Shown here: in pieces, positions 34,722 to 60,038 of the stretch
Numbering within the stretch: the stretch's first letter is position 1
How the letters are laid out: each line of letters begins with the position of its first letter
DNA from: Chryseobacterium sp. 36-9
GTDB taxonomy: Bacteria; Bacteroidota; Bacteroidia; Flavobacteriales; Weeksellaceae
Length of the DNA stretch: 64,000 bases
NCBI GenBank assembly: GCA_001898785.1
Contig: MKVE01000024.1
Location: 1-64,000, forward strand
Reading direction: 5' to 3'
Program-made: the position numbers and the translations under genes
The notes under the pieces: generated by a model
The model's database searches: none
What the model was told of the DNA's origin: nothing
Seen by the model: the letters and a program-made list of their open reading frames with translations, nothing else

Positions 34722-34843
34722 GAGGAGCTTATACCTGCTTTCCACTATATCTTTTTTGTTTTATCACAAATTGTAGTTTTTAACAACAAACAACAAAAAC
34801 AAAAAAGGATGCCGATGCAATCAGGGCTAGGGCGTTGGTCGGG
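34722..34843. repeat. Dispersed intergenic palindromic repeat, copy A1
   Basis: GAGGAGCTTAtACCTGCTTTCC, ACTATATCTTTTTT ... AAAAAAGGATGCCGATGCAATC, AGGGCTAGGGC. The A-rich centre and complementary TCTTTTTT/AAAAAAGGA flanks give a long imperfect hairpin. It shares its blocks with 45011-45091 and 59479-59611, and its overall plan with B1-B3. It lies between the glucanase and esterase genes of the polysaccharide locus. Confidence 0.75.
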
Positions 34844-38008: not shown

Positions 38009-39367
38009 TTATTCTTTGATGAATTTCTTGGAAATCCACTTTTGATTATCTTTTTTCAGATTCAGCAGATAGGTTCCTTGCTGCAATTTAGAAACATCAA
38101 TGCTGTTATCAGTATCAGACATTTGAACCTGATGAATAATTCGTCCTGTTAAATCCAGAATTTCTGCAGAGATATTTTTTTCATTCACATTTTGAAGATA
38201 GATTTTCTCTTTTGCAGGATTAGGCGTGATTAAAATATTAACTTGGTTAATATCAGAAACGGCAAGATTATTAGTTTTGATTTTATAAATGGTATTGCCT
38301 GCTGCTACGTAAAGTTGTTTCTGATTGTCCTCACCGAAAGTTGTAAAATTCGCTGAAAAACTCGGACTCCAAACCATCGTATTTGAAGTATCCAAAACAC
38401 CTATTTGAGCTGAACAGTAATCTGCAAAAACATATTTTCCTACGAGATCTGTATAAAGGTTACCTCTGTAGAGATAACCGCCCGTGATAGAGCATTTTCC
38501 TCCGGAATGATCGTATTGAGCAACCGGGAAAGTCATTGTAGAAGCGTTGGCACATCCTGTGGTATTATAAGGGGTGTTTCCTTCGTAACATCTCCAGCCG
38601 TAGTTGATTCCTGGTGTTGCTGCAGATACTTTATTGATTTCTTCGATGTCACCTTGTCCGACATCAGCAATCCAAACCTGATTGGTGGTTCTGTCAAAAG
38701 AGAATTTCCATGCATTCCTAAGGCCGTAAGCCCAAATTTCGTCAGCGCCGTCAATTCCCACGAAGGGATTATCTGACGGAATATTATAAGCATTATCCGA
38801 GTTGACATCAATTCTCAGCATTTTCCCTAAAAGCGAATTTTTATTTTGAGCATTATTATTCGGATCGCCACCGCTTCCGCCATCGCCGGTAGATATCCAC
38901 AAGTAACCATCTGCTCCAAAATGAATACTACCGCCATTATGATTAGTAAAAGGCTTAGGGATAGTTAAAAGAATTTTTTCCGATGAAACATCTGCTGTAT
39001 TAGGATTTGACGAGTTTGCTGTGAATCTGGAAACTCTGATTGATCCTTGCAAATTATTATAATAAACAAAAAAATATCTATTGGTTGAAAACTGAGGATG
39101 AAATGCCAGTCCCAGTAATCCTCTTTCACCTCCAAAAGTGATGAGGTTGGAAATATTCAGAAAGTTATCCGGAGCAATAGTTCCGTTTTCATTCACAATC
39201 TTGATAGTGCCGAATTGCTGGACAACAAATAATCTATTGTCAGATGTTGGCGATGCAACAATCTCTACAGGATTAGAAATCCCGGAAACAAAGTTCTCCA
39301 GGCTAATGGTCTGAGCCGATAAACAGGCTACTAAGAATAAGCCGATCCAAAGTAAAAGTTTTCCCAT
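38009..39367 (-). CDS. Secreted PQQ-type sugar dehydrogenase with T9SS tail
   Basis: A 452-residue protein: signal peptide (LLLWIGLFLVACLSAQ), then a six-bladed propeller of the soluble glucose/sorbosone dehydrogenase (GSDH/HHIP-like) type. Visible parts are NRLFVVQQFGTIKIV, GERGLLGLAFHPQFSTNRYFFVYY, HNGGSIHFGADGYLWISTGDGG (catalytic His), YGLRNAWKFSFD and NYGWRCYEGNTPY. The last 80 residues (ITPNPAKEKIYLQN ... GTYLLNLKKDNQKWISKKFIKE) are a type A T9SS C-terminal sorting domain, so the protein is exported to the surface. It may oxidise sugars released by the adjacent locus; the link is positional. Confidence 0.9.
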   Translation of the reverse strand: MGKLLLWIGLFLVACLSAQTISLENFVSGISNPVEIVASPTSDNRLFVVQQFGTIKIVNENGTIAPDNFLNISNLITFGGERGLLGLAFHPQFSTNRYFFVYYNNLQGSIRVSRFTANSSNPNTADVSSEKILLTIPKPFTNHNGGSIHFGADGYLWISTGDGGSGGDPNNNAQNKNSLLGKMLRIDVNSDNAYNIPSDNPFVGIDGADEIWAYGLRNAWKFSFDRTTNQVWIADVGQGDIEEINKVSAATPGINYGWRCYEGNTPYNTTGCANASTMTFPVAQYDHSGGKCSITGGYLYRGNLYTDLVGKYVFADYCSAQIGVLDTSNTMVWSPSFSANFTTFGEDNQKQLYVAAGNTIYKIKTNNLAVSDINQVNILITPNPAKEKIYLQNVNEKNISAEILDLTGRIIHQVQMSDTDNSIDVSKLQQGTYLLNLKKDNQKWISKKFIKE

Positions 39368-39555
39368 AACTTATTATTTTATAATTAATTATAGCCTTAC
39401 CAAATTATATGCCTGTTGAGTGATTCTATTATTAATTTTCATAAAAAAATCTGATTTTCTTTCATTTTTCGAATAGATAAAGCCGATTTGTTATTTTAAA
39501 AATTTAGTAAATACATATTTCTCATTTTCAAATTCCTATTTCCGTTATAAATCAT

Positions 39556-45010: not shown

Positions 45011-45091
45011 TAGGAGCTTAATCCCGCTATCCACTATATCTTTTTAAGCAAAAAAATAAAAAGGATGCCGTTACTATCGGGGCTAGTTAGC
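45011..45091. repeat. Dispersed intergenic palindromic repeat, copy A2
   Basis: TAGGAGCTTAATCCCGCTATCC, ACTATATCTTTTT ... AAAAAGGATGCCG, ATCGGGGCTAG. It is the most compact copy: the two arms AGC...CCCGCTATCC and GGATGCCG...GGGGCT pair imperfectly around an A-rich loop. It lies between the convergent PAP2 and rlmH genes. Confidence 0.75.
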
Positions 45092-56449: not shown

Positions 56450-56475
56450 TTTTTTTTAAATTTAATTCATACTTA

Positions 56476-56506
56476 TTTGGTGGGAATTAAATAATTTCTA
56501 TATTTG
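56476..56506 (+). promoter_or_regulatory. Promoter of the DUF4395 leader transcript
   Basis: -33 TTTG (56476-56479), 19-bp spacer, perfect -7 box TATATTTG (56499-56506): one of the best promoter matches in the window. Transcription should start near 56512, producing a leader of about 130 nt before the DUF4395 gene. Confidence 0.75.
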
Positions 56507-56525
56507 CAGTAGATTTAGAATTAAA

Positions 56526-56570
56526 TGATAAGCATATTCTCTCATATCATGATGTGCAATCCCAAATAGA
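56526..56570 (+). CDS. Putative leader peptide MISIFSHIMMCNPK
   Basis: A 14-codon ORF beginning with ATG about 14 nt after the predicted transcription start and ending with TAG. Codons 9-11 are Met-Met-Cys (56550-56558). A ribosome paused there would cover the 5' arm of the first RNA stem and favour the antiterminator, allowing read-through into the DUF4395 gene when Met-tRNA or Cys-tRNA is scarce. No other coding function is likely for such a short peptide. The regulatory reading is inference from the layout. Confidence 0.5.
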
Positions 56571-56594
56571 CATTTGGTAGGAGAGAATGTGTGA

Positions 56595-56626
56595 AAGCTC
56601 TGCCTTACCGGTAGAGCTTTATTATT
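56595..56626 (+). terminator. Intrinsic terminator inside the leader
   Basis: Stem AAAGCTCTGCC (56595-56605) / GGTAGAGCTTT (56611-56621) with one G-T pair and a 5-nt loop, followed by TTATTATTT. The 3' T-run is interrupted, which suits a regulated, leaky terminator. Confidence 0.65.
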
Positions 56627-56642
56627 TAAAATTTGAAATTAT

Positions 56643-57074
56643 ATGGATAAGACCAACAAATATTATACGGATGAGAACGTGGTGAGATTAACTGCGTTTC
56701 TGGTGATGGTGATCATCGCTGTATCCTTATTTTTCAAATGGTCTTTTCTGGTTTTGCTTTTAGTTTTTGATTTTGTATTGAGAGCTTTAGGATTATCGAT
56801 TTCTCCTTTAGCTCTTTTTTCAAAATTTATTTTAAAAATACTGAATATCAAGCGTAAACCGATTTTTGCAGCACCAAAGAGATTTGCAGCAACATTAGGA
56901 GCGGTTTTCACATTGCTGATTTTCTTATTGACAATTAACGATTTTTATGACGCAGCTCTCGCATTAGGAATTGTACTGATGATATTGGCCGGCCTGGAAA
57001 GCTTTTTCAAGATCTGTGTCGGCTGTTACATCTATCAGGTTGTCGTTGTTCCGATCCAAAATAAAATTAAATAA
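56643..57074 (+). CDS. DUF4395 membrane protein
   Basis: A 143-residue protein with about four membrane spans. The DUF4395 pattern is visible: NVVRLTAFLVMVIIAVSLFFKW, LLVFDFVLRALGLSISPLALFS, the PKRFAATLGAVFTLLIFLL segment, and GLESFFKICVGCYIYQVVVV with a Cys pair (CVGC) in the last span. The family is often found near rhodanese or thiol-related genes, and the function is unknown. It is preceded by the leader RNA with Met-Met-Cys codons and followed 18 bp later by the NIL-like gene. The CVGC pair and the leader together hint at sulfur metabolism. Confidence 0.85.
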   Translation: MDKTNKYYTDENVVRLTAFLVMVIIAVSLFFKWSFLVLLLVFDFVLRALGLSISPLALFSKFILKILNIKRKPIFAAPKRFAATLGAVFTLLIFLLTINDFYDAALALGIVLMILAGLESFFKICVGCYIYQVVVVPIQNKIK

Positions 57075-57092
57075 TCCACCAAAAATATTACT

Positions 57093-57401
57093 ATGATTTA
57101 CAAACAAGAAACTACAAATAACGCTTTTTTCGCAACGCCGAAAAGAGAGATCATTCTGGAAATAGAGCTGAATGGGAAGATAAGATTTGATATTCTACTT
57201 TATACGATTTACAACCATTATAACATCAGTTACAAAATTGTGAATGCACACATCGAATATCTGAATGGGAATAATTTCGGGAATGTTAAACTCTTGTTGA
57301 AAATCACTCAGGAAGAAATAATCAAGATTGAAAACTATCTGGCGCAATACAAATTGTTGAGCAGCAAGATCGATGTTCTGCAAAAAAAGGAAGCTTCATA
57401 A
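57093..57401 (+). CDS. Stand-alone NIL-like domain protein
   Basis: A 102-residue soluble protein resembling the NIL domain found at the C-terminus of the methionine transporter ATPase MetN, where it binds methionine. Matching features are the N-terminal REIILEIELNGKIRFD strand, the helix DILLYTIYNHYNISYKIVNAHIEYL, and FGNVKLLLKITQEEIIKIENYLAQ. I rely on pattern recognition, not an alignment. Its stop codon lies in the loop of the following terminator. It forms the second gene of the unit controlled by the putative Met/Cys leader, which makes a methionine-sensing or -binding role attractive. Confidence 0.6.
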   Translation: MIYKQETTNNAFFATPKREIILEIELNGKIRFDILLYTIYNHYNISYKIVNAHIEYLNGNNFGNVKLLLKITQEEIIKIENYLAQYKLLSSKIDVLQKKEAS

Positions 57402-57416
57402 AAGCTTCCTTTTTTA
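57389..57416. terminator. Bidirectional terminator between NIL-like gene and murA
   Basis: Stem GGAAGCTT (57389-57396) / AAGCTTCC (57402-57409), flanked by A-run and T-run. The loop contains the TAA stop of the NIL-like gene (57399-57401), so translation runs into the stem. Confidence 0.85.
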
Positions 57417-59478: not shown

Positions 59479-59611
59479 TTTGGGCGTATCCCTTTGTTTT
59501 TCCTGCACCAATTCCGAAGCTAAAAACAAGCGGGTCGTGCTTTCCACTATATCTTTTTCTGCCAAAGCTTTTCCAAATTTAGAAAAAGGATGTCGTTGCA
59601 ATCACTTACGC
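59479..59611. repeat. Dispersed intergenic palindromic repeat, copy A3
   Basis: TTTGGGCGTATCC ... CAAGCGGGTCGTGCTTTCC, ACTATATCTTTTT ... AGAAAAAGGATGTCGTTGCAATC, ACTTACGCG. It shares the TTTCCACTATATCTTTTT and AAAAAGGATG(C/T)CG blocks with A1 and A2, and TTTGGGC ends with the B copies, so it bridges the two types. It overlaps no credible gene. Confidence 0.65.
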
Positions 59612-59615
59612 GTTT

Positions 59616-60038
59616 TCAATTCAGGAATTTTTTCTGTTGTTCAGCACTTGGTAAAAAGCATTGATTAGCTGCCAGCTTTTTCCGGTTTCGGGAAATCAAA
59701 CTGTAAAACTGATTGCCTAAAAAATCAGGAATCACTTTTCCAATGGCGGCCAAAGAGTAGATTCCATCAATCTCAGTTGCGATTTTCAAAACAGCCTTAT
59801 ATTTTGTAAGATAAAAACTCTGCGGTTTCCAAAGATAAAGTGTGTCGAAAATCTGGTTCGGAAGATTTCTTTCGTTTAAAAATTTTTGTCCAAACTCAGA
59901 TTGAAGAGAAGCAAATAGAAATTTATCATTTTTATCCTTTTCCAGAATCCATTGTACCCAATGATTGCAAAATCCGCATTCTCCATCATAGAAAACAATA
60001 TATTTATCTTTAAAACTGGCTGAGACTTCTGTTGTCAT
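59616..60038 (-). CDS. DCC-family thiol-disulfide oxidoreductase-like protein
   Basis: A 140-residue thioredoxin-like protein of the DCC/DUF393 family. The motif is IVFYDGECGFCNHWVQWILEKD (DGxCxFC). FLFASLQSEFGQKFL and the LWKPQSFYLTKYKAVLKIA segment follow the family layout. It probably acts in thiol-disulfide exchange; partners are unknown. Its start overlaps the end of the haem-binding-domain gene by 4 bp (ATGA), so the two are probably co-translated. Confidence 0.88.
   Translation of the reverse strand: MTTEVSASFKDKYIVFYDGECGFCNHWVQWILEKDKNDKFLFASLQSEFGQKFLNERNLPNQIFDTLYLWKPQSFYLTKYKAVLKIATEIDGIYSLAAIGKVIPDFLGNQFYSLISRNRKKLAANQCFLPSAEQQKKFLN

Follow-up and report, generated by a model that had tools for sequence, protein, structure and literature searches.

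A candidate cysteine-responsive transcription attenuator upstream of a DUF4395 and NIL-domain gene unit in Epilithonimonas

The leader of a DUF4395 gene in the window (the whole 64,000-nucleotide stretch of DNA that was analysed) is best read as a ribosome-mediated transcription attenuator that responds to cysteine by way of charged tRNACys, a reading to which we assign a probability of about 0.78 from comparison of sequences. Such a switch would probably permit production of DUF4395 and of the NIL-domain protein encoded with it only under cysteine shortage. The leader ORF, its Cys codon, the stems and the terminator were found to be conserved, with covariation, and Cys-run leaders, tRNACys genes and sulfur genes were found to be associated with DUF4395 in Bacteroidota. 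The original prediction had proposed an attenuator with DUF4395 and NIL as its target that would sense 'Met or Cys'. The attenuator logic and its target are supported by a conserved peptide, a covarying stem and a terminator, and in folding an antiterminator forms in most leaders once the Cys codon is masked; the signal is narrowed here to cysteine.

All elements named in the original prediction were found in the letters of positions 56476-56640 of the window, which is of Epilithonimonas. The promoter, the 14-codon ORF with Met-Met-Cys at codons 9-11 (56549-56557), the 12-bp stem and the terminator could each be read in the sequence as described, and the alternative pairing was present with its coordinates shifted by one base (56576-56585 with 56598-56609, not 56577-56586 with 56599-56610). 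The proposed DUF4395 and NIL-like identities were confirmed by Pfam. The features are as follows.

56461-56491, plus strand: imperfect palindrome TTTAATTCATACTTATTTGGTGGGAATTAAA spanning the -33 box, a putative operator site for a sulfur regulator (read in the sequence)
56476-56506, plus strand: predicted promoter of the flavobacterial type, TTTG-N19-TATATTTG (read in the sequence)
56525-56569, plus strand: leader ORF MISIFSHIMMCNPK, 14 codons, ATG at 56525 and stop codon TAG at 56567-56569
56532-56543, plus strand: 5' arm of stem 1:2, within the leader ORF (folding, covariation)
56555-56557, plus strand: candidate regulatory Cys codon TGC, codon 11 (comparison of 23 leaders)
56576-56585, plus strand: 5' arm of the antiterminator, GGTAGGAGAG (co-transcriptional fold with the ribosome masked on the Cys codon)
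56581-56592, plus strand: 3' arm of the 12-bp stem 1:2 (folding, covariation)
56594-56620, plus strand: intrinsic terminator hairpin 5' of DUF4395, tail ATTATTT (terminator search; pairs kept)
56598-56609, plus strand: 3' arm of the antiterminator, CTCTGCCTTACC, overlapping the terminator's 5' arm (masked fold)
56643-57074, plus strand: DUF4395 protein of 143 aa with a CVGC motif, its membrane location predicted from sequence (PF14340, E 7.1e-27)
57093-57401, plus strand: stand-alone NIL-domain protein of 102 aa, resembling MetN's C-terminal domain (PF09383, E 2.7e-7)
57383-57415, plus strand: unit-end terminator, overlapping the NIL stop codon (terminator search)

The predicted promoter has its TTTG box at 56476-56479, a spacer of 19 nt and TATATTTG at 56499-56506, an arrangement that fits the flavobacterial consensus, and the ORF starts 19 nt downstream of its last G. 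The -7 box is present at all 20 genus loci with DUF4395, in one of them (L011) as the variant TATATCTTTG. The terminator U-tract of the window is broken (GCTTTATTATTT; 56621-56630), and that of the 19 other genus loci has 5-9 unbroken T. Folding of the leader gave -43.3 kcal/mol versus -20.4 (sd 3.2) for shuffled sequences (z -7.15), with 0 of 200 shuffles as stable. Rfam covariance models, which together with folding had been proposed as a check, gave no family over the leader at gathering score, the best match within 56450-56700 being a eukaryotic lncRNA at E 3.9; an Rfam family was rejected as an explanation of the leader. Elsewhere in the window, three Flavo-1 RNAs scored above the Rfam gathering score (34727-34832, 45016-45088 and 59529-59619 (minus strand)), and no tRNA genes were found in the window.

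We infer that ribosomes stall at this leader and that transcription reads through it. When cysteine is ample, the ribosome would reach the UAG codon, free the part of stem 1:2 that lies in the ORF and sit over the beginning of segment 2. Both stem 1:2 and the terminator would then form, and transcription would end before DUF4395. When cysteine is scarce, the ribosome would stall at Cys codon 11 and mask the 5' arm of stem 1:2, such that segment 2 would pair with the emerging 5' arm of the terminator and the polymerase would continue into the DUF4395 and NIL genes. A point against this reading is that the window leader has a single Cys codon, since the amino-acid attenuators known so far usually have more regulatory codons than one.

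The leader was compared across the genus. The nearest named relatives are Epilithonimonas, some members of which were deposited under Chryseobacterium, and the DUF4395 protein of E. arachidiradicis is 90% identical to that of the window. DUF4395 was found in 20 of 23 genus genomes; in a sample of 296 genomes of the family, 30 had it, those 20 among them. At each of the 20 genus loci having this gene, DUF4395 is preceded by the leader ORF, the stem and the terminator and followed by a NIL gene. By use of a covariance model built from 15 of the 20 genus leaders, the leader was detected in 22 of the 23 genus genomes (E 5.1e-9 or better) and no leader was detected in the remaining one (G011). Two of these genomes (G005 and G014) have no DUF4395 and carry the leader directly 5' of the NIL gene; together with a further leader of the window type in Flavobacteriaceae bacterium PS02293 (L105) and the 20 DUF4395 loci, they make up the set of 23 leaders. 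Met10-Cys11, near the end of the ORF, is invariant in this set (Cys codon TGT in 21, TGC in 2), and peptide conservation extends beyond the Cys, with I-F-S-x-I-x-M-C-N in most leaders. The comparison of related leaders that had been suggested as a check thus gave a conserved ORF, Met-Cys in 23/23, a covarying stem 1:2 and a conserved terminator. Beyond the genus, the leader model gave matches in 59 of 273 genomes, at E values of 1.2e-5 to 1e-2. All of them were treated as false after inspection of seven loci; four of the seven resemble terminators and sit between genes that are presumably those of a nucleoside phosphorylase and a TatD-like protein. Five weak extra matches inside the genus (three in G020, one in G012 and one in G004) were likewise treated as false.

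In an alignment of the 23 leaders that was fitted to the structural model, and hence biased towards it, stem 1:2 displayed two-sided changes in 6 of its 12 pairs (20 cells). This cell count was matched by 0 of 1000 column shuffles and the pair count by 2 of 1000, and partners slid by 1-3 columns gave no more than 4 pairs and 9 cells. In the L105 leader (MYQNCSNMMMCNTN), both stem arms and the peptide are altered relative to the other leaders. Terminator pairs were kept in 96% of cells over the 23 leaders; the two terminator pairs with two-sided changes were reached by 581 of 1000 shuffles and the 10 cells by none. When RNAalifold was applied to all 20 genus leaders, the terminator alone was recovered owing to misalignment of the 3' arm in L007-L011, and the consensus structure was set by hand on 15 sequences after RNAalifold.

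The ribosome was represented in folding by a mask of the P-site codon with 15 nt on each side, after the usual ribosome footprint. With the mask on the Cys codon and the RNA extended up to the terminator loop, the antiterminator pairing (segment 2:3) formed in 18 of 20 leaders, as judged by eye; of the two exceptions, L017 folds so in part and L011 folds otherwise. In L011, the 5' arm of the stem lies upstream of the ATG, and a ribosome on the Cys codon would leave it uncovered. A mask over the stop codon instead allowed both stem 1:2 and the terminator to form (six sequences). When the full leader was folded with a stalled ribosome, the terminator stayed in the minimum-energy fold (six sequences); therefore, read-through would have to be kinetic. 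In dinucleotide shuffles of single sequences, at a threshold of 15/300 or fewer, 6 of 20 leaders gave support to segment 2:3 and 11 of 20 to stem 1:2. Arms were also swapped between leaders, and in most cases a leader's own two arms did not make the best combination (segment 2 was clipped in L007 and L008).

Among 68 named DUF4395 loci, unrelated genera were found to carry other short ORFs with Cys runs, among them the following:

L111: MKLNSQNITICCCCCCCKAQWISYWWA
L120 (Edaphocola): ending in VMCCCHVWMCGNYLCLN
L023-L026 (Cloacibacterium; L148 is the contig of L026): starting MNCCCPF
L142, L154 and L156: MRNVIIHTTMCCCSVRQGVGYSWM and relatives, with GTG starts possible
L110: ending in MVCCCMSPGCCR

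A terminator is present 3' of these Cys-run leaders, in six by script and in the remainder by eye. At the operon level, a short ORF with CC was found before 9 of 36 DUF4395 operons; for the control operons of these loci the count was 2 of 121 (p=2.9e-5), the 36 loci including some from outside Bacteroidota and related loci not being independent. The 9 include one in Spirochaetales (L166) that is possibly due to chance, and L142, with its GTG start, was missed because only ATG starts are counted. Under a stricter rule (three of one residue within 6), Cys was found in 6/36 versus 1/121 (p=0.0006) and none of the 19 other residues fell below p=0.13. The 36-operon set left out on purpose 16 loci with the window-type leader; also dropped were L154 and L164 (no gene called), 11 operons reaching an edge and 3 with less than 80 nt upstream. 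This operon-level test was chosen after the data were seen, and it replaced a first, narrower test of the region directly upstream of DUF4395 (6/29 versus 8/194, p=0.004) because several control matches of the latter were leaders of DUF4395 operons. By the automatic test, no CC ORF was detected for the other 27 of 36 DUF4395 operons, and no recognisable Cys leader precedes DUF4395 in G075 of the Cloacibacterium group (L022) or in Halpernia (L160). Complementarity of the post-Cys stretch to the terminator arm was better than shuffles (6/300 or fewer) in 4 of 13 Cys leaders (L148, L025, L110 and L121) and lay above this threshold in the other nine.

Cys leaders were also found before related sulfur genes. 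A search for CysM gave 10 loci in 9 of 17 genomes at E 1e-60; with one locus at a contig end left out, a poly-Cys short ORF and a terminator are upstream of the cysM-like gene at 7 of 9 loci, and a putative EamA coding sequence precedes the other two. At four loci (L021, L191, L192 and L196), an EamA or cysM-like gene is preceded by a pair of consecutive leader ORFs containing Cys, and a terminator was identified by eye after each of them. In the window's genome, the metNIQ operon (L071, G000:C15, about 38236-39421) is headed by a separate leader, MSEKMFCCYDLTFRIYMKK, that comes with a stem and terminator. Twenty-three genus genomes were searched for metN and 18, the window's own included, had it at E 1e-80; CC is present in an ATG-started ORF of 15 of their metN leaders, a single Cys in two (L177 and L178), and one (L184) has no comparable ORF.

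It is unlikely that the Met-Met-Cys run makes methionine, alone or along with cysteine, the signal of this attenuator. Such a signal would fit the invariance of Met10 (23/23), the methionine-transporter type of the NIL domain and the frequent presence of Met beside Cys in other leaders (MCCM, VMCCC, MMMC). However, the residue preceding Met-Cys is Met in only 9 of the 23 leaders and otherwise Ile (11), Leu, Val or Lys (one each), the leaders of related operons are enriched in Cys and not in Met (p=0.13), and what the metN leaders have in common is CC, not MM. Methionine as the sensed amino acid is thus unsupported by codon 9 or by the residue test, and since codon 9 is variable, Met10-Cys11 is invariant and the leaders of related operons are Cys runs, we narrow the 'Met or Cys' of the original prediction to cysteine.

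Less probable still is an arrest peptide, or a riboswitch-like aptamer, that answers to another signal and in which the Cys codon is kept for some other reason. The conservation of the peptide beyond Cys and the very stable fold are what would be expected of it, but other genera have, in the same place, unrelated peptides that share Cys, and the other residues of the window-type peptide vary where the stem varies (L105 and L011). About 19 nt of RNA lie between promoter and ORF, and the lack of an Rfam match also argues against this explanation.

The candidate operator was examined in the window's genome. The metN gene of this genome is also preceded by a similar palindrome, and a degenerate pattern was derived from these two sites themselves. 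Allowing up to 3 mismatches, the pattern matched 17 sites versus 8 for the reversed control; because the control also gives matches, the weaker sites of this genome may be due to chance. These include sites before cysH (identified by NCBIfam; L090) and before what are presumably metK (L096) and a JmjC/cupin-like gene (L086). A strict form of the pattern was found in 5 of 22 Cys leaders, of which three belong to metN in the window's genus, versus 4 of 517 in the background, and in 1 of 20 window-type leaders. Besides attenuation, the palindrome hints at a DNA-binding regulator as a second layer of control. It is highly improbable that the operator alone regulates, with an ordinary terminator and a chance stem in a strongly promoted leader, as the palindromes over this promoter and before metN, and the weaker ones before cysH and metK, would allow, given the ORF conserved in 23/23, the stem covariation, the terminator between promoter and gene at 20 loci and the Cys leaders of related operons.

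A cysteine signal is also consistent with the genes that accompany DUF4395. In other Bacteroidota, its operon partners include a CysM-like cysteine synthase, a JAB-domain (Mec-like) protease, a ThiS-family (CysO-like) carrier, a ThiF-rhodanese (MoeZ-like) protein, an AhpC-type peroxiredoxin, MetNIQ and EamA. Ten of these proteins (from L120, L130, L143 and L144) were identified by Pfam and those of other loci by eye; in an NCBIfam check of ten proteins, mostly those of the Pfam set, several scores were under the curated cut-offs. The CysO and Mec names are those of the mycobacterial pathway. At L143 (4205-4489), a MetN without a NIL domain is adjoined downstream by a separate 94-aa NIL-like gene.

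tRNACys genes form part of this company. Of the 68 loci, 55 were scanned, and a tRNACys gene was found upstream of and co-directional with the DUF4395 unit at 10 (L110, L112, L115, L116, L120, L124, L129, L132, L144 and L155); 11 of the 13 tRNA genes upstream of DUF4395 units at the 55 loci are for Cys. In Edaphocola (L120), the order is an MCCC leader, a terminator, tRNACys, DUF4395 and a stand-alone NIL gene. The ten genomes with an upstream tRNACys were searched with the L120 tRNACys as query, and the number of tRNACys genes matched was at least two in six, at least one in three and zero in one. All are lower bounds because the query is insensitive: it missed a known tRNACys in the zero-count genome and had no match in that of the window. 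In at least one lineage, Edaphocola, a tRNACys gene follows a candidate cysteine-sensing terminator, and one may ask whether the supply of this tRNA feeds back on its own attenuator.

The DUF4395 residues C125, G127 and C128 are invariant in 59 aligned homologues. An AlphaFold2 model of DUF4395 was mostly helical (mean pLDDT 87); a PDB fold search with this model gave a best E of 1.5, and a sequence search of the PDB gave no match. The NIL protein of the window matched MetN model positions 268-335 weakly (E 0.0019) and is 29% identical to the NIL part of a MetN; its MetN match in the PDB was not significant (E 0.77), and no ferredoxin part was found in it by Pfam. NIL/ferredoxin proteins are described as required for methionine synthesis in Desulfovibrio (PMC5764234). 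The products of the unit would be a membrane protein and a MetN-type NIL domain that help to acquire or handle sulfur amino acids.

A broader reading has in our estimate slightly better than even odds: Bacteroidota would have a phylum-wide cysteine-attenuation regulon, in which leaders with Cys codons, arisen independently of one another and at times paired in tandem with two terminators, govern a set for sulfur acquisition. If true, the set would comprise a CysM-Mec-CysO-MoeZ-type cysteine pathway, MetNIQ, EamA, peroxiredoxin, DUF4395, stand-alone NIL and an extra tRNACys; with tRNACys inside the regulon, the sensor tRNA would therefore be produced by the switch that it sets, and DUF4395 would be a new component of cysteine and sulfur acquisition. 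The attenuator would link both DUF4395, whose family has no assigned function, and the stand-alone NIL proteins with the acquisition of cysteine and methionine, and would offer a testable cysteine sensor in a phylum for which we found little in print on the control of sulfur amino acids.

Attenuators of the trp/his type consist of a leader ORF, mutually exclusive stems and a terminator. The window leader would follow this logic, but with cysteine as the amino acid. The original prediction knew of no described attenuator of this kind for these genes. In the open-access literature, among the matches listed, no cysteine attenuator was recognised in Bacteroidota or for DUF4395/NIL, and DUF4395 is mentioned in two papers but in the title or abstract of neither. 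In general terms the statement goes too far, as Cys leader ORFs as such are known from mycobacteria and proposed for cysS of Rhodobacterales. In Flavobacterium psychrophilum, leader-peptide attenuation is suspected for amino-acid biosynthesis operons generally, and the relevant text names such operons and not DUF4395/NIL (PMC9723704). Mycobacteria have cysteine-responsive, polycysteine leaderless sORFs (Canestrari et al. 2020, as described in PMC9094748; cited in PMC13236596), by a mechanism termed translation attenuation (PMC13236596), and the account of the actinobacterial case in a 2005 comparison states that conserved terminators were not found (PMC1262725). As described there, these resemble the window leader in having a short upstream ORF with Cys codons, which in mycobacteria makes downstream sulfur genes cysteine-responsive. 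By contrast to their Cys runs, leaderless starts and occurrence in Actinobacteria, the window leader has a single Cys codon and no Cys run, an intrinsic terminator, a predicted 5' untranslated stretch and other target genes. The uORFC-8-2 motif before cysS of Rhodobacterales is described as a Cys uORF with proposed sensing of Cys-tRNA (PMC8632094). By that description, rather than by sequence, it is like the window leader in its Cys uORF, a stem over the codons, an intrinsic terminator and the proposed Cys-tRNA sensing, and differs in its tandem Cys, usually at codons 14-15, its cysteinyl-tRNA synthetase target and its alphaproteobacterial hosts; the window leader precedes DUF4395/NIL, not cysS, by Pfam. 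The kind of attenuation is already known, and the leaders, the phylum and the targets are new.
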